Assembly: GCA_036496605.1 (NCBI GenBank)
Contig: DASXKV010000063.1
Coordinates: 1 to 41,470 of the forward strand
From: Gemmatimonadaceae bacterium
GTDB lineage: Bacteria > Gemmatimonadota > Gemmatimonadetes > Gemmatimonadales > Gemmatimonadaceae
Reading direction: 5' to 3'
DNA: 41,470 nt
Shown here: in pieces, positions 4,909 to 41,254 of the stretch
Numbering within the stretch: position 1 is the first letter of the stretch
How the letters are laid out: every line of letters starts with the position of its first letter
Program-made: the position numbers and the translations under genes
The notes under the pieces: generated by a model
Databases searched by the model: none
Told to the model about the DNA's origin: nothing
The model's input: the letters and a program-made list of their open reading frames with translations, nothing else

Positions 4909-5034
4909 GCGACTGTCCTCCACGGAGTGAGGAGTGGGAACCACGCCCTCGTCGATCGCTAAAAAACCAACTTTCCGCCGAGCCATTACGTCACAGGGAC
5001 GCAACGACTCGACAGGTGGGATTAACTGGGCGGT

Positions 5035-5063
5035 GATATGGGACCAGGGGCGCACAATGTCAA
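5035..5063 (-). promoter_or_regulatory. Candidate sigma-70 type promoter of SusC/SusD pair 1
   Basis: On the minus strand a perfect -35 (TTGACA, 5058-5063) is separated by 17 nt from CATATC (5035-5040), a weak -10 matching three consensus positions. This leaves a leader of about 120 nt before the SusC start. The rest of the 4909-5182 intergenic stretch shows no ORF, RNA gene or strong terminator for the ABC operon upstream of it. The -10 is the doubtful part. Confidence 0.4.
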
Positions 5064-5182
5064 GACAGATTTTCGCATAGACACTACTATGTCGAAGGCA
5101 CCCATCGACCTATGGCAGCTCTCGGGCGTCGGCGCTCTGGCGAGTTGTGATGTTGCGATACAGTTTTGATCTTGCTCGACGG

Positions 5183-6310
5183 TTACTGCTGCGACGTCGC
5201 GTTACTGGTGCTCGCGGCCGGCTGCTGCGTGCCTAACGCCAGCCGACTACCGTGCTCCGGATCGAAGAGGTGCACCGCGTTCGGGGCCACGCGCAACGCG
5301 ACTGTCTCCTCGATGCGGGGAGCGCGGTCCGCACCCACCGCCGCGACCAGATCGGCGCCACCCGCTACGCGCACGTATACGAGCTGCTCACTCCCCAGCG
5401 GCTCGACGAGTGTCACCACTGCACTCACACCAGTGTCGGCTGCAGCGCCGAGCGAGATATCGTGCGGCCGAACGCCAAGCACCACGGGACCTGCGCGCGT
5501 CGCGGTCGAATCCGACAGGGCGATCGTCACGCCCGGCGCGACGAAGCGTGCGCGCTCGTTCTCGCGCTCGATCGTGCCCCGAACGAAGTTCATCGATGGG
5601 CTGCCGATGAAGCTCGCGACGAATTGATTCCGCGGCTGACGATAGAGCTCCATCGGAGGCGCGATCTGCTGGAGCACACCGTCCTTGAGCACCGCGACGC
5701 GCGTCCCCAACGTCATCGCCTCCACCTGATCGTGCGTGACGTACACCATCGTCGCGCCGAGCCGGCGATGCAGGCGCGCCAGCTCGGCGCGCGTCTCGAC
5801 GCGAAGCTGCGCGTCGAGATTCGAGAGCGGTTCGTCGAAGAGAAATGCCTTCGGCTCTCGCACGATGGCGCGGCCCAGAGCGACGCGCTGCCGCTGTCCC
5901 CCGGAGAGTTGCGCCGGCTTGCGGTCGAGCATCGATGCCAGTCCCAACGCGTCCGCAACCTCACCAATGCGCCGCGCAACCATGTCGTCCGATTGCTTTC
6001 GCAGCCGCAGACCGAAGGCCATGTTCTCGCGCACGGTCATGTGCGGGTACAGCGCGTAGCTCTGGAAAACCATCGCGATATCGCGCTCCTGCGGCGGGAG
6101 CCGCGTGACGTCGCGTTCGCCGATCGCGATCGTGCCGCCGGTGGGCTTCTCGAGACCGGCGATCATGCGCAGCACTGTCGACTTGCCGCTCCCCGACGGC
6201 CCGACGAGAACGAGAAATTCACCGTCAGCGACCTCTAATGAAAGGTCGCGTGACGCGACGAATCCGTTCGGGTAGCGCTTGTCGACGTGGGATAGCGTTA
6301 TGCGCGCCAT
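5183..6310 (-). CDS. Sugar ABC importer ATP-binding protein (MalK/UgpC type)
   Basis: 375 residues. Energises uptake by the two permeases upstream. Walker A GPSGSGKST at residues 37-45, Q-loop in VFQSYALYPHMTVREN, signature LSGGQ at 135-139, Walker B FLFDEP at 156-161, and the switch His in VTHDQ at 193. The C-terminal third is a TOBE-like regulatory domain (GVRPHDISLG and VEPLGSEQLVYVRV), as in MalK, UgpC and MsmK. It is the last gene of the operon, 46 nt downstream of the second permease. Such ATPases sometimes serve several importers, but here the cognate set is complete. Confidence 0.95.
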   Translation of the reverse strand: MARITLSHVDKRYPNGFVASRDLSLEVADGEFLVLVGPSGSGKSTVLRMIAGLEKPTGGTIAIGERDVTRLPPQERDIAMVFQSYALYPHMTVRENMAFGLRLRKQSDDMVARRIGEVADALGLASMLDRKPAQLSGGQRQRVALGRAIVREPKAFLFDEPLSNLDAQLRVETRAELARLHRRLGATMVYVTHDQVEAMTLGTRVAVLKDGVLQQIAPPMELYRQPRNQFVASFIGSPSMNFVRGTIERENERARFVAPGVTIALSDSTATRAGPVVLGVRPHDISLGAAADTGVSAVVTLVEPLGSEQLVYVRVAGGADLVAAVGADRAPRIEETVALRVAPNAVHLFDPEHGSRLALGTQQPAASTSNATSQQ

Positions 6311-9381: not shown

Positions 9382-9410
9382 GCGGGGGCAAGCTTACGTC
9401 ACGCCGTGCG

Positions 9411-9575
9411 CAGAGGGTAGAGGGCGCAGGTGCAGAGGGCAGAGGGCAGAGGGCAGAGGGCAGAGGGCAAAGAGTTGAGCGTGCAACAGAGTGAGCCACG
9501 CACGACACTCAACTCTCTACACTCCACCCTCAACACTCTGCCCTCAACCCTCTGCCCTCAACCCTCTACCATCAA
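9411..9575. repeat. Heptamer inverted array A (agagggc / gccctct)
   Basis: The left part (9411-9469) contains agagggc units in register at 7-nt spacing; the right part (9508-9575) is built of ctctgccctcaac-like units that are its reverse complement. AGAGTTGAG at 9471-9479 pairs perfectly with CTCAACTCT at 9508-9516, so the whole can fold into one long imperfect hairpin. Five GGG tracts at exact 7-nt spacing (9437-9467) also fit a G-quadruplex. It lies between two minus-strand genes, just past the PAP2 gene's 3' end and upstream of the ABC operon. Confidence 0.85.
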
Positions 9576-9578
9576 CGC

Positions 9579-10427
9579 CTAGAATGGCACCGAAAAGCTC
9601 ACCATGACGGGCGCCTTTGACGGAGTCATTGAACGGCGCTCGCGTTCGAGCATTCGCGCCGCGACCGCTTTCCCCGTTGCGTAGCCGAACATCGCGCCGA
9701 CGACGGTGTCGGAAAGCCAGTGGCGTCCATCCATGACCCGCCCGGCACCGATGGCGAGGGTGACGCCGTAGAGCAGCGGCGTCGCAGCGTGCAGATCGAA
9801 GCGGTGCGAGAGAAAGCTCGCGCAACCCAATGAATTCGCGATGTGCCCGCTGAAGAACGAATGCATGTTCCAATCGTGGCTGCCGGGTGAGCGAATGACA
9901 AACGGATCGTCCGGCGAAGTGCGCGGGCGATCGCGCGCCACGAGCAGATAGACGATCTCCCGTGCTCCTGCGCTCGTTAGGTGTGCCGTGGCGCAACCAA
10001 GCCCCGCGTCCCGGAGCGCCTGCGAGCGGCCGATCGACCCCGCGAGATACAACACGCCGGAGATCGGGAGCAGATACTGCCCACTTCCCAGCTCGTACGC
10101 GGGGTATTTCGCCTCCTCGCTCAGCGTGTGTTTGAGCGTGCGCACCGGCCACGCGTCCGGATGATCGCTGATCCATCGCGCGAGGGGCTCGTCGGCGGTC
10201 GCGGCGACGCCGGTGAGCGCGGCCGTCGCCGCGACACCGGCCCAGTCGTCCTCGGTGGCGTGCGCCGGTGACGTCCACACGCTCCACACGTCCCCCACGA
10301 GGTGGCGCAAGTCCTGCCGAACGGAGTCCGCGCGCAGCTGCGCACTCGCCGATAGCGGAAGCGCGACAACGCGGAGAACCAACCAGAAACTCAATTGCCG
10401 CGCCGACGTACGCTGCACTGAACTCAC
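9579..10427 (-). CDS. PAP2-superfamily phosphatase
   Basis: 282 residues from a GTG start. Type 2 phosphatidic acid phosphatase/haloperoxidase superfamily; members dephosphorylate lipid phosphates such as undecaprenyl pyrophosphate or phosphatidate in or at the membrane. The active-site motifs are all present: ARDRP (165-168), SGH (193-195), and R230-x5-H236-x3-D240 in GRVMDGRHWLSD. N-terminal hydrophobic stretch with ASA-Q suggests a signal peptide cut near residue 30. Membrane segments are weaker than in BacA/PgpB-like members, so it may be a periplasmic form. Terminal residue is Phe. Its stop sits a few bases beyond array A. The substrate is unknown. Confidence 0.85.
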   Translation of the reverse strand: MSSVQRTSARQLSFWLVLRVVALPLSASAQLRADSVRQDLRHLVGDVWSVWTSPAHATEDDWAGVAATAALTGVAATADEPLARWISDHPDAWPVRTLKHTLSEEAKYPAYELGSGQYLLPISGVLYLAGSIGRSQALRDAGLGCATAHLTSAGAREIVYLLVARDRPRTSPDDPFVIRSPGSHDWNMHSFFSGHIANSLGCASFLSHRFDLHAATPLLYGVTLAIGAGRVMDGRHWLSDTVVGAMFGYATGKAVAARMLERERRSMTPSKAPVMVSFSVPF

Positions 10428-11030: not shown

Positions 11031-11630
11031 ATGGCAGCAAACAACCTCAGCGGAAAGCGCGTGGCGATTCTCGCGACTGACGGCGTCGAACAGGTCGAGC
11101 TCACGGAACCACGCAAGGCGCTCGATCGAGCGGGAGCGAAGACTGTGGTCGTGTCGCCGAAAAGCGGAAAGATCAAAGGTTGGCAGCACGATCATTGGGG
11201 CGACGAGATCCCCGTCGATCTCACACTCGATCAGGCGAGGGCCGACGATTTCGATGCATTGCTCTTGCCAGGCGGGGTGATGAATCCGGACCACTTGCGG
11301 ACGGACAAGCGCGCGGTCGAGCTCGTGAAGCGCTTCTACACCTCGGGCAAACCGGTCGCGGCGATCTGCCATGGACCGTGGCTACTCGTCGAGGCGGACG
11401 TGGTGCGCGGCCGCTCCGTGACGAGCTGGCCATCGCTCCAGACCGATCTCCGGAACGCGGGCGCCGACTGGAGCGATAAGGAAGTCGTGACCGACGAGGG
11501 GCTCGTCACGAGCCGCAAGCCGGCCGACATCCCGGCGTTCAATGCGAAGATGATCGAGGAGTTCGCCGAGGGCTCGCACGCAGGCCGACGTGAAACGACG
11601 CGCGGCGTGCGGCCGGAGGCGCGCCAATAG
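11031..11630 (+). CDS. DJ-1/PfpI-family protein (deglycase/chaperone-like)
   Basis: 199 residues. Class I glutamine amidotransferase-like fold of the YhbO/YraA/PfpI group, whose members are reported as protein and nucleic-acid deglycases, proteases or stress chaperones. The nucleophile elbow AICHGPW places the conserved Cys at 113 followed by His 114, and the supporting acidic residue is Glu20 (TDGVEQVE). LLLPGGVMNPDHLR is the typical loop. No signal peptide, so cytoplasmic. Good ribosome site GGAGGA. The last 15 or so residues (RRETTRGVRPEARQ) extend past the family core. Convergent with the SusD-like gene across array B. Stress induction is plausible for the family but not shown here. Confidence 0.9.
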   Translation: MAANNLSGKRVAILATDGVEQVELTEPRKALDRAGAKTVVVSPKSGKIKGWQHDHWGDEIPVDLTLDQARADDFDALLLPGGVMNPDHLRTDKRAVELVKRFYTSGKPVAAICHGPWLLVEADVVRGRSVTSWPSLQTDLRNAGADWSDKEVVTDEGLVTSRKPADIPAFNAKMIEEFAEGSHAGRRETTRGVRPEARQ

Positions 11631-11631
11631 A

Positions 11632-11727
11632 GGGGCGAGGGGCTAGGGGCTAGGAGTTAGAATCCGCTCACCAAGCCCCTAACCCCTAACCCAAGCCCCT
11701 AACCTCTAACCCCTAACCCCTACATCC
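11632..11727. repeat. Heptamer inverted array B (aggggct / cccctaa)
   Basis: Left arm of aggggct-type units (11632-11660) and a longer right arm of aacccct-type units (11674-11726), period 7 nt, reverse complementary to each other. It fills the space between the convergent PfpI and SusD-like genes almost completely, so it is positioned to act as a bidirectional terminator. Confidence 0.85.
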
Positions 11728-21400: not shown

Positions 21401-22717
21401 ATGACACGCTATCACATCGCGATCACCCGGCCGGCACTCGTTGCATTGCTCGCCGCGGCGACGTTCGCGCCCAAGGCACGCGCGCAGCTCGCGAGCGCCA
21501 GCGCGGCCTCCCTCGCGTTAGGCGACAACTACACCGCGCTCGCTCGCGGCTTCAACGCCGTCAACTGGAATCCAGCGGGACTCGGCATGCCGGAGAATCC
21601 GCTCCTGTCGTTCGCGTTCGCGGGACGGGGCGATGCAGGAATGGATCCGATCTCGATGAGCGATCTGGCAAAGTACAGTGGCGCCGTCGTTCCGAATGCC
21701 GTGCTCGCGAACTGGATGTCGCGCGTGCGGGCGCAAGGCGGTCAGAAGGTCGATGCAGAAGGCACTGGATCCTTCGCGTTGAGCGTCGGACCGTTTGCCT
21801 TCCAGCTGGCCACGAATGCCTACGAGCGCGGCAAGCTCAATCCGGACGCCGTCGAAGTGCTTCTGTACGGAAACTCCACGCAGACCGGCACGCCGCGGGA
21901 CATGAACTTCACCGGCTCCCGCACCGAAGCGGCGGTGGTGACGACCGCGGCGGCGAGCTTCGGGCAATCCGTTGACATCGGCCTCGGTCCGCTCACACAA
22001 CATTTCGCGTTCGGCGCAACCGTGAAGTACATCGTCGGCAACGCCCTCTTGATCGGTCAGGACGCTGGCTCGCAGCTCGCCGCGAGTCCCCTCGCGCTCG
22101 ACGTGCAGTTCCCGATCATCCAGTCGGACACCTCACTCAATGGTATGCCGCAGCGCGGAAAGGGTGTCGGCCTCGACGTCGGCGCGGCCTGGGAGTTTGG
22201 TCCTTTCGCCGCTGGCGCAACGATTCAGAATCTCGTCAACACGTTCAAATGGAACGTGAACGAGATGTACTTCCGCCCGGGCAACGCGGTCTTCAGCGCC
22301 GCCACGCGGACGACGAATTTCGACGTGATGTCGATGGCGTCGGTGCCCGATTCGCTGCGCGCCCGCTCCGACGCGCTGAGCGCCGAGGTGGCCGCGATGC
22401 GCTTTACGCCGTCGCTCAACATCGGGGTGTCGATGAAGGTCCTTCCCTTCCTCACGGCGATGGCGGACGTCCGCCAGAATCTCGGCGACGGGATGCACCT
22501 TGCGGAGCGCACGCACGTCGGCGCGGGTGCGGAGCTCAGGATCATCCCCTTCCTTCCAATTCGCGCTGGCCTCTCGATGATCAGCGGCGGCTACGTGGCC
22601 TCGGCTGGCGCGGGTCTCGAGGTGGCATTCTTCCATCTCAATGCGGGGATCGCGGCGCGGAAGACCGAGTACGGGCAATACCCGTCCGGCGCGCTGACGG
22701 TCTCGATTGGGCAGTAA
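21401..22717 (+). CDS. PorV/TraF-like outer-membrane beta-barrel protein (DUF5723-type)
   Basis: 438 residues. Signal peptide ending PKARAQ. N-terminal block SLALGDNYTALARGFNAVNWNPAGLGMPENPLL is the hallmark of the FadL/PorV/TraF_2 superfamily (a WNPAGL-type turn). Repeating beta strands follow (FAFGATVKYIVGNALL, GVGLDVGAAWEFGPFAAGATIQNLVN, LNIGVSMKVLPFLTAMADVRQ, LRIIPFLPIRAGLSMISGG, GLEVAFFHLNAGIAAR). Possible roles in the family include transport of hydrophobic compounds or docking of secreted proteins at the surface. Translated with the lipoprotein upstream (stop and start 3 nt apart). Confidence 0.8.
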   Translation: MTRYHIAITRPALVALLAAATFAPKARAQLASASAASLALGDNYTALARGFNAVNWNPAGLGMPENPLLSFAFAGRGDAGMDPISMSDLAKYSGAVVPNAVLANWMSRVRAQGGQKVDAEGTGSFALSVGPFAFQLATNAYERGKLNPDAVEVLLYGNSTQTGTPRDMNFTGSRTEAAVVTTAAASFGQSVDIGLGPLTQHFAFGATVKYIVGNALLIGQDAGSQLAASPLALDVQFPIIQSDTSLNGMPQRGKGVGLDVGAAWEFGPFAAGATIQNLVNTFKWNVNEMYFRPGNAVFSAATRTTNFDVMSMASVPDSLRARSDALSAEVAAMRFTPSLNIGVSMKVLPFLTAMADVRQNLGDGMHLAERTHVGAGAELRIIPFLPIRAGLSMISGGYVASAGAGLEVAFFHLNAGIAARKTEYGQYPSGALTVSIGQ

Positions 22718-22738: not shown

Positions 22739-23012
22739 GCGCGTCGGGAGGGGCGCGTCGAATACGGCGCGTCGAATACGGCGCGTCGAAAGGGGCGTTT
22801 TGCGAATTCTGTAACGCGCGCGCAACGCGGCGCCCGATTTCCTTGTCTAGTCGCAGTTTCGACGCGCTCCCCTCGACGCGCTCCTCTCGACGCGCCCCTC
22901 TCGACGCGCTCCTCTCGACGCGCCCCTCTCGACGCGCCCCTCTCGACGCGCCCCTCTCGACGCGCTCCCCTCGACGCGCCTTTTTCGACGCGCCTTTTTC
23001 GACGCGCCCCTT
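22739..23012. repeat. 14-bp tandem repeat in two opposed blocks
   Basis: Left block: GCGCGTCG recurs at 22739, 22753, 22767 and 22781, exactly 14 nt apart. Right block: TCGACGCGC recurs at 22859, 22873, 22887, 22901, 22915, 22929, 22943, 22957, 22971, 22985 and 22999, again every 14 nt (11 units), with variable CCCCTC/CTCCTC/CTTTT tails. The right unit is the reverse complement of the left, with about 70 nt of unrelated sequence between. It fills the 362-nt gap between the outer-membrane gene and the ABC exporter. All six frames can be read through it, but the products are low-complexity and not credible protein. Confidence 0.95.
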
Positions 23013-23079: not shown

Positions 23080-24933
23080 ATGACTGCGCCCGCTGCTGCC
23101 GTAACTGCTCCCCAAAAGAAGAAAGTCGACACTGCCCGCGCCTGGGCCGAGACTCGCCAGCTCATTCGCGAGCACCGCGGATCCCTTACGATCGGCATGA
23201 CCCTCATGCTGATCAATCGCGTCGCCGGGCTGGTGCTTCCATGGACCTCCAAGTTCCTCATCGACGACGTCATCGGTAAAGGGCACGCACAGTTGCTCAT
23301 GCCCCTCGCCGGCGCGGCGGCGCTCGCGACGCTCATCCAGGCCGCAACAGGATTCGCGAACTCTCAGGTCGTCAGCGTCGCCGCACAGCGCGCGATCACC
23401 GAGATGCGCAAGCGGGTCCAGGAGCACGTTCTCCGACTGCCCGTCTCCTATTTCGATTCGACCAAGACCGGCGTCCTCATCTCGCGCGTGATGAGCGACG
23501 CCGAGGGCGTGCGCAACATCGTCGGAACAGGGCTCATTCAGCTCGTCGGCAGCTTGATCACGGCTGTGCTCGCGCTGGGCATCCTGGTCTGGCTGAACTG
23601 GAAGCTCACTGCTCTCACGATCGTGGTCCTTGCGGCGTTCGGTGGCATGATGGCGATTGCGTTCAAGCGTCTGCGGCCGCTGTTCCGCGAGCGGAGCATC
23701 ATCAACGCCGAAGTCACTGGTCGCCTCGCCGAAAGCCTCGGTGGCGTGCGACTCGTAAAGGTCTACGTGGCCGAGCGGCGCGAGCGGTTGGTCTTCGCCA
23801 AGGGTGTCCACAAGCTGTTCCGGAACGTGGCGAAGACGATCACGGGGACATCGGCCGTGGGCGCGGGCGCGTCGGTCATCGTTGGGCTCATCGGCGTCGT
23901 GATGATCATCGTCGGTGGACGCGCGATCCTCGCCCACCAGATGACGCTCGGCGATTTCATCATGTACATCTTCTTCGTCGGGCTGATGGCGGCGCCGCTC
24001 GTGCAGATGGCGTCGATCGGCACGCAGGTCAGCGAGGCGTTCGCGGGGCTCGATCGCATTCGCGAGATCATGCAGACACCAACCGAAGACCAGGCGGACG
24101 CGGGGAAAGCGCCGCTGTCGGACGTCCTCGGCGAGGTGAAGTTCGAGGACGTCAGCTTCGAGTACAACCCGGGCGTGCCCGTGCTCAAGCACGTCACATT
24201 CGAGGCCGAAGCCGGCTCCACGACGGCGCTCGTAGGGCCGAGTGGCTCTGGTAAGAGCACGCTCATCAACCTCGTGATGGCGTTCACGCATCCCAAGAGC
24301 GGTCGCGTCATCGTCGACGGGCACGATCTCGAGACCGCGCGACTCCACGATTATCGGGGGCAGCTCGGCGCCGTTATGCAGGACAACTTCCTCTTCGACG
24401 GCACGATCCGGGAGAACATCATCTACGCGAAACCGGGCGCGACGAACGAGGAGGTGCGCGCCGTCGCTCGCATTGCCCACGTCGACGAATTCGCGGAGAA
24501 GTTCGAGAACAAGTACGAGACCATCGTTGGTGAGCGCGGTGTGAAGCTATCGGGCGGGCAGCGCCAGCGCATCGCGATCGCGCGCGCGATCCTGGCTGAT
24601 CCACGAATTCTCATTCTCGACGAAGCGACGTCGAGCCTCGACAGCGAGAGCGAGGCCCTGATCCGCGACGGACTCCGCTCGCTGCGTCGCGGACGCACGA
24701 CGTTCGTCATCGCGCATCGTCTGTCGACGATCGAGAGCGCGGATCAGATTCTCGTCCTCGACAACGGCATCGTGGTCGAGCGCGGTACGCACCGCGAGCT
24801 CCTCGCCCTCGGCGGTCGTTATCGCCAGCTGTACGACAAGCAGTACGGCGCCGAGCGCGATCGGTTCATCAATCCGGGGGAGGATTTCATTCCCGTGCCG
24901 CCCTCGCCGAGGGAGCAGGTCAAGGTCCGCTGA
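23080..24933 (+). CDS. ABC exporter, fused membrane and ATPase domains (MsbA/multidrug type)
   Basis: 617 residues from the ATG at 23080; the frame is open far upstream through the repeat array, but residues before this ATG are low-complexity. Type-1 exporter: six membrane helices from about residue 35 (LTIGMTLMLINRVAGLVLPW) to 310, with the coupling segment ERSIINAEVTGRLAESLGGVRLVKVY. ATPase domain: GPSGSGKST, Q-loop VMQDNFLFDGTIREN, signature LSGGQRQR, Walker B ILILDEATSSLD, switch His in IAHRLST. Works as a homodimer or paired half transporter; lipid or drug export is the family role. No partner gene is adjacent. It contains no copy of the CGTTAGGC word. Confidence 0.95.
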   Translation: MTAPAAAVTAPQKKKVDTARAWAETRQLIREHRGSLTIGMTLMLINRVAGLVLPWTSKFLIDDVIGKGHAQLLMPLAGAAALATLIQAATGFANSQVVSVAAQRAITEMRKRVQEHVLRLPVSYFDSTKTGVLISRVMSDAEGVRNIVGTGLIQLVGSLITAVLALGILVWLNWKLTALTIVVLAAFGGMMAIAFKRLRPLFRERSIINAEVTGRLAESLGGVRLVKVYVAERRERLVFAKGVHKLFRNVAKTITGTSAVGAGASVIVGLIGVVMIIVGGRAILAHQMTLGDFIMYIFFVGLMAAPLVQMASIGTQVSEAFAGLDRIREIMQTPTEDQADAGKAPLSDVLGEVKFEDVSFEYNPGVPVLKHVTFEAEAGSTTALVGPSGSGKSTLINLVMAFTHPKSGRVIVDGHDLETARLHDYRGQLGAVMQDNFLFDGTIRENIIYAKPGATNEEVRAVARIAHVDEFAEKFENKYETIVGERGVKLSGGQRQRIAIARAILADPRILILDEATSSLDSESEALIRDGLRSLRRGRTTFVIAHRLSTIESADQILVLDNGIVVERGTHRELLALGGRYRQLYDKQYGAERDRFINPGEDFIPVPPSPREQVKVR

Positions 24934-28462: not shown

Positions 28463-28656
28463 CCCAGACCGTCGGCGGCCCTCTTGAGGCAATCATCCAC
28501 TGCTTGAACGCGGACACAGCCGGACACAACGGACAAAGCCGGACAAACAAGAGAAGGTTGACGATCTTATGAAAAGTTCGTTCCGCGCTCTTTGGTTTTG
28601 TCCGGCTTTGTCCGTCGTGTCCGGCTGTGTCCGTGGTAACAGCTGTTGAGAGCTGC
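28463..28656. repeat. Dispersed repeat, copy 1 (cggaca family, inverted arms)
   Basis: Left arm of cggaca-type units (spacing 9-10 nt) and right arm of tgtccg-type units, about 60 nt apart; the arms are reverse complements. It shares its outer ends and inner words with copy 2 at 36235-36432 in the same orientation, including the identical 12-mer CCCAGACCGTCG at the left edge and AGCTGC at the right. It lies between the convergent transporter gene and the 28708 gene. The 28435-28707 stretch contains nothing else I can name. Confidence 0.85.
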
Positions 28657-31415: not shown

Positions 31416-31503
31416 GGGTGGAGCGTGGAGGGTAGAAGGTGGTAGAGGGTAGAGGTAGCGGCGTTGACCCTCTGCCCTCTACCCTCTACCCTTCCACTCT
31501 CCC
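31416..31503. repeat. Heptamer inverted array C (agggtag / ctaccct)
   Basis: Left arm of gtggagg/agggtag units (31416-31455), right arm of ctctaccc units (31467-31503), period 7 nt. It starts 3 nt past the stop of the exported Gfo/Idh/MocA gene. The right arm runs into the 3' end of the next (minus-strand) gene, whose stop codon TAG is inside a repeat unit. Confidence 0.85.
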
Positions 31504-32729
31504 TTCGCGACCGCGGGCACAAATTGATCAATACCCTTTGGCGGGAATGACAACGTCTTCCCCTGTTCGGCGCTCTGATACGCCGTCATGAGCATCTTCA
31601 CGACTTCGATGCCGTCGTCGAAAGTCAGCAGTGGATCCGCCGTGCCCTGGAAGACGCGGCAGAAGTGCCGGTCCTCGGCCTCGTAGCCGTACGCGACGGC
31701 CTCGCTCGGCACAACGGGCATCAAGCCCATTTCCGCGTTCTGCTTCTCGACGAGATCCTCGCCGGCCTTCCCCTTCACTTCGCGGCTGAAGAAGAGATGG
31801 AGTCCCGAGTCGAGCGAGTTCCACTGCATCGAGTACTCGGGGCCAAGGAGCTCGGCCGAGAGGCGCAGGCCGGCCCCGACGAAACTCCAGGACGTCGATG
31901 CCTCGCCTAACACAACTGCGCCGTCGGCTGTTTGAAACTCGATGAGAACGCTCGCAAAATCCTCGCTTGGCGATTTTGTATAGTCGACGTCACTGCCCAT
32001 CTGTTTCTTGAGCTTCGCCGCGTACTCGGGACGTGTCCACTTGAGGCTGGCGATGTGGCCGGTGACGCGTACGGGCTTCACGGTCGAGAGCGACTCGCCG
32101 GGTTTCGTGAGGAGGTGCCTAACGACCAACGCCGAATGGCACATCATGTCGTTGAGGACGCCGCCACCTTGCAGGCGGCCTTGCCAGAACCACGGCGTGT
32201 GCGGCCCGCTGTGCTCTTCCGCGGCGCGCGCGAGGTAGGGACGCCCCGTCGTCGCCGCACCGCGTGCCCACAGGAGCATGCGTCCACGCTCGACGTGTGG
32301 CGCGAAGGCCTGATTCTCGAGGTAGCCGGTCGCGAGGCCGACGCTCTTGACGAGGTCCCGCACCTGCTTCGCTTCGGCGACGTTCCGCGCGAGCGGCTTC
32401 TCGCAGGCGATGCCCTTCAGATCACCCTTGCCGCTCTTATATGCGTTGACGATTTCCTCGACGTTCTCGACGCGGGAGTGGTTCGGCCCGGTGAGCCAGA
32501 TCGCCTCGATCGCAGGATCGGCGACCATGTCGGTGATCGTCTTGTGGGGCTTGCAGTCACCGATGTCGAGCTGTTTCGCGTACGCCGCGGCGGCAGCGGC
32601 GTTCTTCCGGTTCGGGCTCCAGACGCCGCGCACGTCGCCGTCGCGGATGCCTGTCCAGCCGAGCATGTGGAACTTCGCGTTGAATCCCGAGCCGATGAAG
32701 CCGACACCTAACGGTTGTCTGGAGGGCAT
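31479..32729 (-). CDS. Cytoplasmic Gfo/Idh/MocA oxidoreductase
   Basis: 416 residues from the ATG at 32729; the frame is open 22 codons upstream, but that runs through repeat array D. No signal sequence. Rossmann GFIGSGFNAKFHM (residues 10-22), catalytic EKPLARN (110-116), C-terminal substrate domain (GGGVLNDMMCHSALVVRHLL and VLIEFQTADGAVVLGEASTSW). Unlike the Tat-exported relative at 30076 it should work in the cytoplasm with soluble NAD(P). The last residues WKGRG are encoded by repeat array C. Family: sugar dehydrogenases and inositol dehydrogenases; likely oxidoreduction of an imported (keto-)sugar. Confidence 0.9.
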   Translation of the reverse strand: MPSRQPLGVGFIGSGFNAKFHMLGWTGIRDGDVRGVWSPNRKNAAAAAAYAKQLDIGDCKPHKTITDMVADPAIEAIWLTGPNHSRVENVEEIVNAYKSGKGDLKGIACEKPLARNVAEAKQVRDLVKSVGLATGYLENQAFAPHVERGRMLLWARGAATTGRPYLARAAEEHSGPHTPWFWQGRLQGGGVLNDMMCHSALVVRHLLTKPGESLSTVKPVRVTGHIASLKWTRPEYAAKLKKQMGSDVDYTKSPSEDFASVLIEFQTADGAVVLGEASTSWSFVGAGLRLSAELLGPEYSMQWNSLDSGLHLFFSREVKGKAGEDLVEKQNAEMGLMPVVPSEAVAYGYEAEDRHFCRVFQGTADPLLTFDDGIEVVKMLMTAYQSAEQGKTLSFPPKGIDQFVPAVAKGEWKGRG

Positions 32730-32734
32730 GCGCT

Positions 32735-32814
32735 GGTGATTGGTTGTTGGTGGATGGTGGTTAGTTGCAGTGTTGGCACGCTCGCCAATCACCAATCACC
32801 AACCGCCAACTACG
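32735..32814. repeat. Heptamer inverted array D (ggtgatt / aatcacc)
   Basis: Left units of 7 nt (GGTGATT, GGTTGTT, GGTGGAT, GGTGGTT at 32735-32762), right units AATCACC, AATCACC, AACCGCC, AACTACG at 32787-32814. It fills the gap between two minus-strand genes; the TAG stop of the upstream gluconate-dehydrogenase-like subunit gene lies in the last right unit. Confidence 0.9.
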
Positions 32815-33415
32815 AATAACTGACTCCAAGCTTCGCGAGCGCCTCGGGCGGGCACCCGTTCCATGCCGGCAGCGCGACGTTCCCCTTGTACTGGACGTCC
32901 TGCCAGCCCATCTGCGTCGAGTAGAAGCCGGACGCCGTGAGATCGCGGAAGTGGCTGAAGAACAGGACGCCGTGATGCATCTCGGGTCGCGCCTTCTTCG
33001 GCCAGGCGATGTCGTCGAGCACCTGCCGCCGCTGCGTGTCGGTTGCGGTGACGAAGATCTTCGAGAAGCGATGCTGACATTCGTTGTCGAGCCAGGCGAG
33101 GCCGCCCTGGATCGACGTCTTCTGTGTCACCGTGGCATCCTTATCGGCGAGAAGGAAGTCCATGAACTCCGGGACTTTCGCGTCGGTCGCGCTGCCCGAG
33201 CGCTCGTCGCGCGGAATGATGTAGTCGACGAGGAGCCTAACGGCGGCCCATTCGTGTGCGGTGAAGAAGGCCGGCGCGGCTGGTGCTCCGGTGGCCTCGA
33301 GCTTCTCCATAGCGCGGACGACACGCTCGAGGTGTTTCGGGGCAACTCCTATCGAGGCCGCCAATGGAGTGAGCGCCAGAGCTTTCAATGCATCTCGTCG
33401 ATTCACATCCGTCAT
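32810..33415 (-). CDS. Gluconate 2-dehydrogenase subunit 3-type protein
   Basis: 201 residues from the ATG at 33415 (AGGAG ribosome site); an ATG five codons earlier has none. A Tat-like N-terminus VNRRDALKALALTPLAASIG lets the pair be exported together. Family body FFTAHEWAAVRLLVDYIIPRDERSGSATDAKVPEFMDFLL and WLDNECQHRFSKIF matches subunit 3 (the small 'hitch-hiker' subunit) of membrane-bound FAD dehydrogenases. In such enzymes the large GMC subunit has no export signal of its own. It precedes nothing but is 60 nt downstream of the GMC gene, so both are one unit. Confidence 0.9.
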   Translation of the reverse strand: MTDVNRRDALKALALTPLAASIGVAPKHLERVVRAMEKLEATGAPAAPAFFTAHEWAAVRLLVDYIIPRDERSGSATDAKVPEFMDFLLADKDATVTQKTSIQGGLAWLDNECQHRFSKIFVTATDTQRRQVLDDIAWPKKARPEMHHGVLFFSHFRDLTASGFYSTQMGWQDVQYKGNVALPAWNGCPPEALAKLGVSYS

Positions 33416-36234: not shown

Positions 36235-36432
36235 CCCAGACCGTCGTTGGCCCCTGACGCAGCGAGAATCAACGGCTGTTTAACACGGACAAGGCCGGAC
36301 ACGCGCGGACAAAGCCGGACACTGCAAAAAAACGCGAGCGACTCCTTCAAGAGATCGTTAAACGCCCTCTTGATTTGTCCGGCTTTGTCGCAGTTGTCCG
36401 GCTTTGTCCGTTCACAGTCTGTTGATAGCTGC
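36235..36432. repeat. Dispersed repeat, copy 2 (cggaca family, inverted arms)
   Basis: About 198 bp, same orientation and end-to-end similar to copy 1 at 28463-28656: left arm of cggacaaggccgg-type units, right arm of tgtccggctttg-type units, identical 12-mer CCCAGACCGTCG at the left edge. Internal spacers differ. It occupies most of the 36125-36479 gap; the remaining 36125-36234 piece must carry the promoter of the TIM-barrel gene, but I see no clear one. No ORF, tnp gene or target-site duplication recognised. Confidence 0.85.
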
Positions 36433-41181: not shown

Positions 41182-41254
41182 CTGGGGCGGGAGGACTCGA
41201 ACCTCCAACTTCCCGGTTAACAGCCGGGCGGTCTGCCAGTTGACCTACACCCCA
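41182..41254 (-). tRNA. tRNA-Asn (anticodon GTT)
   Basis: 73 nt on the minus strand. Acceptor stem TGGGGTG pairs with CGCCCCA (one G-U), discriminator G as usual for tRNA-Asn, anticodon loop CTGTTAA with GTT at the centre between 5-bp CCCGG stems, T arm GGAGGTTCGAGTCCTCC. No CCA is encoded. A run of six T follows, which may end transcription. Confidence 0.95.

Follow-up and report, generated by a model that had tools for sequence, protein, structure and literature searches.

Bacterial intergenic regions have long been seen to contain short tandem arrays for which a cause is lacking. The window analysed here, a 41,470-nucleotide stretch of the draft genome of a Gemmatimonadaceae bacterium, contains such an array between two protein genes, composed of two opposed blocks of 14-bp units located ahead of an ABC exporter. 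The original prediction for this locus was a protein-binding array serving the exporter, and the question is what the array is and how it came to lie there. The reading that we hold with moderate confidence is that it is a non-autonomous copy, lacking an S23 gene, of a dispersed selfish element similar to the intervening sequences (IVSs) of 23S rRNA.

The array (22739–23012) consists of four reversed units starting at 22739, 22753, 22767 and 22781, a centre of 69 bp, and eleven forward units running from 22859 to 23007, and unit mapping bears out the exact 14-nt steps that had been described. Of the 15 units, 14 have the core TCGACGCGC without mismatch (11/11 on the right, 3/4 on the left), and the identical core claimed for all of them therefore holds with the exception of the first left unit, GCGCGTCGG, which has one core mismatch. 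TRF reports a period of 14 with 10.9 copies (score 222), and the core is counted 20 times in the window against 5.2 expected, a number reached by no shuffle. The two blocks are predicted to pair into a very stable stem (RNA MFE -186.8 kcal/mol, z -7.45), as had been proposed. Unique sequence bounds the copy on both sides, its unit count is that of the draft assembly, and it carries no S23 gene itself. Comparison with a plasmid collection by DNA similarity gave no match, and over the stretches searched the sole Rfam match in the window is a tRNA (41182–41254).

Table 1. Opposed arrays of the window and the genes on either side of the 14-bp array.
Feature	Position	Strand	Remark
5' purine-rich arm, 4 x 14-bp units	22739..22789	-	core GCGCGTCGA on the + strand, equal to TCGACGCGC on the - strand
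Centre, 69 bp, type A hairpin family (GCGCCCGATTTCCTT)	22790..22858		common to L009, L010, L025 and L027 of the same genome
3' pyrimidine-rich arm, 11 x 14-bp units: TCGACGCGC + 5 variable bases	22859..23012	+	
Upstream neighbour: outer-membrane-type protein (TraF_2 / DUF5723 match)	21401..22717	+	context only
Downstream neighbour: ABC exporter (ABC_membrane + ABC_tran)	23080..24933	+	context only
Opposed heptamer pair (GCAGAGG arm / ACCCTCT arm), S23-less	9410..9580		unit type of the C40 S23 gene of the same genome
Opposed heptamer pair (GGGGCTA arm / CCCCTAA arm), S23-less	11630..11722		unit type of the C4 S23 gene of the same genome
Opposed heptamer pair (GGGTAGA / ACCCTCT), S23-less	31416..31504		unit type of the C40 S23 gene
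Opposed heptamer pair (TGGTGGT / TCACCAA), S23-less	32734..32820		unit type of the C30 S23 gene

Heptamer arrays also occur in the window, and all four are opposed pairs with the purine-rich arm first. The tie that had been drawn between them and the 14-bp array, 14 being twice seven, stands for this shared architecture but not for the unit as a doubled heptamer. Reading the unit as two heptamers was rejected, since its halves TCGACGC and GCCCCTC agree at 3/7 positions only, and the relation is thus purely numerical. Opposed 10-bp arrays are present as well, at 28511–28633 (CGGACACAGC / TGTCCGGCTG) and 36286–36410 (CGGACAAGGC / TTTGTCCGGC), with centres of ~54 bp, and another lies on contig C18 (L220 13247–13379). 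No S23 gene with this unit was found in the genome; the 10-bp unit and the 17-bp unit of the S23 gene on C59 have CCGGACA in common.

The TCGACGCGC array belongs to a family present at about 29 places in the 6.0-Mb, 70-contig genome. A two-unit pattern gave 225 matches genome-wide and 0 for the reversed control, and the 14-bp unit was found in 0/59 genomes of relatives. Wherever both arms are visible the order is reversed units, centre and forward units, a fixed outward orientation. The centres are of two types, alike within each type: type A is found in the window and the copies named in Table 1, and type B in L014, L015, L024, L026 and L028 (twice). The window centre is identical to that of L025 at 55/65 positions (z 12.8). 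No homology was found outside the arrays among copies with like centres, and such sharing of centres between unrelated flanks has the appearance of dispersed copies. The neighbouring genes encode PaaA, PurH, SOD, FTCD, PadR, an amidase, an NhaP-type protein and other products, and lie in every orientation. Contigs C19, C32, C40, C45, C46, C48, C49, C50, C52, C54, C55 and C60 start or end inside TCGACGCGC arrays. Since many contigs end in this way, the assembly breaks at the arrays; the family fragments the genome, and its arrays are probably longer than they appear.

The original prediction missed that related arrays have an S23 gene at their centre. Such genes occur within TCGACGCGC arrays on C10 and C16 and match PF05635 (E-values 5e-19 and 1e-18), the 'S23 / 23S rRNA intervening-sequence' family of Avd-like four-helix bundles; on C10 a single arm is visible because the contig begins at the S23 gene. 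The predicted S23 model (pLDDT 95) matches Xanthomonas XCC0516 (2gsc) and Bacteroides BT_0352 (2rld), and, after these, Avd, a protein of retroelements (4dwl, 8ub7). Further S23 genes in this genome are set within opposed arrays of 14-bp GGCGCGCGAGGAAC units on C15, of 17-bp GCGCGAAGTGCCGGACA units on C59, and of heptamers on C40, C30, C4 and C15. Several S23 types, each with different units, are present per genome, and most arrays are without S23. The gene is under purifying selection (dN 0.09 / dS 1.03), with dN/dS of about 0.09, 0.27 and 0.05 in three pairs. Structures of S23 proteins have been solved since 2006, and to our knowledge the family still lacks a function; we also know of no nuclease or polymerase activity of S23. 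An array-less S23 gene on C23 (L069) is orthologous to one on C6 of genome G002 (L258), with 77.5% DNA identity over 3.5 kb and a dN/dS of about 0.05. This is a vertically inherited locus, and it possibly represents a domesticated S23.

Within the family Gemmatimonadaceae, PF05635 is present in 47/59 genomes. Sixty S23 loci were taken with 5 kb on each side, and their 300-bp flanks were scored as mutual inverted repeats. A score of at least 22 was reached at 49/60 S23 loci (82%) and at 0/719 shifted positions in the same loci, these controls being mostly coding sequence; about one fifth of the S23 genes are without inverted flanks. Despite the mostly coding controls, chance pairs should rarely span a whole gene, as nearly all S23-less pairs in random stretches of the bacterium's own genome have centres of less than 75 bp. 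A strict tandem detector (3 copies, 85%) gave 20/60 S23 loci against 0/480 controls, and the inverted-flank score was adopted in its place because many arms have diverged. Around S23, array periods of 7 or 14 predominate, followed by 8, and 9, 13, 15, 17 and 18 occur once each; G outnumbers C in the 5' arm at 95% of 103 loci. In genome G016 (L118), an S23-less opposed 8-bp pair (GGGCGTAA / ACGCCCCG, 676–847) is located ~4 kb from an S23 gene (~4921–5482) with near-identical 8-bp flanks (GGGCGTCA / ACGCCTCG).

The units of S23-less pairs resemble those around the S23 genes of the same genome. S23-less heptamer pairs agree with own-genome S23 heptamers at 6.7/7 positions and with the S23 heptamers of other genomes at 4.7, and 0/5000 draws reached the own-genome value in this test, which used random stretches plus the window and heptamer units listed by hand. 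TCGGGAC, the S23 unit of the complete family member G018, was counted 548 times in that genome and 4 times in G007, and was absent from four others. S23 type and unit are also inherited together. The S23 proteins of C10 and C16 are close and their unit is common to both, and related pairs between genomes are found for C15b and G001 C167 (69% identity, units GGCGCGCGAGGAAC and GCGCGCGAGGAAGA), C4 and G001 C92 (58% identity, GGGGCTA and GGTGCTA), and C59 and G002 C199 (74% identity, both with 17-bp units). On the cut contig G002 C199 the two sides of S23 are in the same direction. In a test on 93 loci, the arms of close S23 pairs were more similar than in any of 2000 permutations, the pairs not being independent, and the effect fades quickly with S23 protein distance. 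Over all protein pairs the relation is weak (Spearman 0.12) and is visible among close S23s only, because the units change fast.

Homology between the C16 and C10 copies is found only within the arrays and the gene, with differing flanks, and likewise C15b and G001 C167 are homologous in arrays and gene and not in flanks. Orthologous sites were compared with the sister species G001, a congener; both sister genomes are drafts of about 80% completeness. The G001 site of the C16 element is 243 bp long without S23 and TCGACGCGC units, that of the C35 copy is 108 bp without arrays, that of the C18 copy holds the sister unit GGCGCGCGAGGAAG, and at the window site the gene pair is kept with a different, heptamer-like palindrome in place of the array. 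The search for an unoccupied G001 counterpart of the window copy found none, and of the four sites compared, those of the window and C18 are filled in G001 by another palindrome or a sister array and are not clean gaps. These differences indicate that elements are gained, lost or replaced at shared sites and, together with the absence of the unit from all 59 relatives, they support rapid turnover. With respect to a MITE or IS-derived element, no transposase was found inside the elements, and the edges of the G001 sites have diverged, which obscures any target-site duplication. A short AGTCCATAG repeat is present at three of the compared G001 sites; the same repeat lies beside a G001 S23 gene, and 400 kb of the bacterium's own sequence contain no copy of it. 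In the G001 loci L242, L243 and L271 the type A hairpin GCGCCCGATTTCCTTGTT has 14-bp GAAGAGCGCGCC units as its arm on one side and a short CTATGGACTGATAG repeat on the other, so that one conserved hairpin is combined with two different arms.

The same layout is observed in other bacteria. A scan with the XCC0516 fragment gave 80 named loci, of which 70 were usable, in genomes from many phyla; an inverted-flank score of at least 15 was found at 44/70 loci and 5/678 controls, and the inverted flanks outside Gemmatimonadaceae are often short. S23 genes within opposed repeats occur, among other groups, in Xanthomonadales, Bacteroidota, Planctomycetota and Cyanobacteria. Heptamers of the GGGAATC type flank the S23 orthologues of Xanthomonas arboricola, X. 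dyei, Rhodanobacter, Dyella and Luteimonas on both sides, and cyanobacterial plasmids have the layout with GGGAACA in Nostoc edaphicum and GGGTGTA in Calothrix brevissima. Rehm and colleagues described the GGGAATC heptamers of Xanthomonas, with 70–75 opposed pairs per genome, and saw no connection to mobile elements (PMC4692102). One of the S23 genes reported from within cas loci lies between cmr3 and cmr2 of Pleurocapsa PCC 7327 (PMC3936711). No report of a general association of S23 with tandem arrays was found in the non-subscription literature searched.

On this reading the full element is a palindrome composed of a purine-rich tandem array, the S23 gene and the same array in reverse complement, and short copies such as that of the window keep the two arms with a small hairpin at the centre in place of the gene. 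S23 is the probable trans-acting part, suggested by the co-inheritance of unit and protein and by the kinship with Avd, and it may recognise its own unit as a stem of DNA or RNA. Acting in trans, it could cause cognate elements to be copied, or their arms to be expanded, at intergenic sites. The association of S23 with the arrays is directly observed, and the copying mechanism is what we infer from it. No copying enzyme was found and no copying event was observed.

The proposed operator for the downstream exporter draws on the location of the array between the upstream gene and the exporter, but the roughly 29 copies adjoin functionally unrelated genes and the congener G001 has the same gene pair with a different repeat; we consider this role very improbable. 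Simple-sequence expansion by replication slippage, to which the S23 link would be incidental, is disfavoured and only a little less improbable. The number of units does vary among arrays, and heptamers are over-represented in many bacteria with slippage proposed as the cause (PMC4692102), but slippage leaves unexplained the opposed pairs and their purine-first polarity, the like centres at unrelated sites, and the 82% of S23 genes in inverted flanks against 0% of controls.

Two other explanations give S23 a different part, and both are unlikely, the second slightly more so. S23 genes may parasitise the repeats, with opposed arrays arising by themselves through slippage and inversion and S23 cassettes inserting into the hairpin loops. 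The IVSs with S23 ORFs in helices 9, 25 and 45 of 23S rRNA (PMC4990558) are consistent with such insertion, as is the majority of arrays without S23. The shared arrays and gene of C15b and G001 C167, without shared flanks, instead show S23 and unit travelling together; C10 and C16 have one unit at different places, S23-less arrays match the S23 units of their own genome, and the G001 site orthologous to the C16 element lacks both the TCGACGCGC arrays and S23. The other possibility is a regulatory or RNA-structural network, in which S23 is an RNA-binding regulator and the opposed arrays are stem-loop sites in untranslated regions or terminators. The strong array hairpins often abut gene ends, and the S23 model is structurally close to Avd, which is part of an RNA-protein complex, but the neighbours are without common function or orientation, units are replaced at the same site between sister species, and several S23 types, differing in their units, coexist in each genome.

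Taken as an S23-less copy of a dispersed IVS-like element, the window array adds a member to an association that had not been recognised before; among known systems, IVS elements and heptameric repeats come closest to it. IVSs are removed from rRNA by RNase III, and resemble the elements described here in having an S23 gene within terminal inverted repeats. That of Coxiella burnetii has an S23p ORF and terminal inverted repeats and was called a selfish element, with tandem heptamers (GACAGAT) just upstream of S23p that vary in number among strains (PMC4990558). The window array has terminal inverted repeats that can form a stem, and its family includes S23 ORFs in the C10 and C16 copies, but it lies between protein genes, and this location outside rRNA excludes it from the IVS definition. 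The elements here are in general intergenic, outside rRNA genes and in many copies per genome, and differ further from IVSs in their long tandem-array arms of many periods and in their S23-less copies. The heptamer arrays GGGAATC of Xanthomonas and GGGGAYT of Nostoc (PMC4692102) and the STRRs of cyanobacteria are likewise short-period intergenic arrays, with opposed pairs in Xanthomonas, but that study made no link to S23 or a mobile element, and the periods here also include 8, 9, 10, 13, 14, 15 and 17. The window array, with a period of 14 and no internal 7-nt repeat, is not a heptameric SSR or STRR.

REPIN/RAYT systems (PMC3116915) share a single-gene source and many short palindromic, non-autonomous and lineage-specific intergenic copies. 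Their repeats are adjoined by a Y1 (HUH) tyrosine transposase and consist of single hairpins, whereas the arms here are tandem arrays and the associated gene encodes the four-helix bundle of PF05635; as it is not a transposase, the element is outside the REPIN/RAYT definition. The DGR protein Avd (4dwl, 8ub7) has the same fold as the S23 model and acts in a nucleic-acid complex, but no template/variable repeat pair, RT or target gene was found next to the S23 genes. A DGR explanation was rejected, as there are no RT genes near the S23 loci; the single RVT_1 locus of the genome (C38) is elsewhere, and nothing ties RVT_1 to the element.

Beyond this genome, we propose tentatively, and with less confidence than for the window array itself, that opposed arrays with a central S23 gene form one widespread selfish class in bacteria and some archaea, in which each S23 lineage recognises its own unit and spreads it. 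Many of the intergenic arrays of heptamers or other short units that lack an explanation would then be non-autonomous copies, driven in trans by S23 proteins. There is a real chance that the general association of S23 with arrays is a new class. The array family accounts for many contig breaks in such genomes. If the proposal is true, it would join two puzzles, the short arrays without a cause and the S23 family without a function, would broaden the concept of rRNA intervening sequences to that of a selfish element spread over the genome, and would provide a testable protein-repeat pair in many species.
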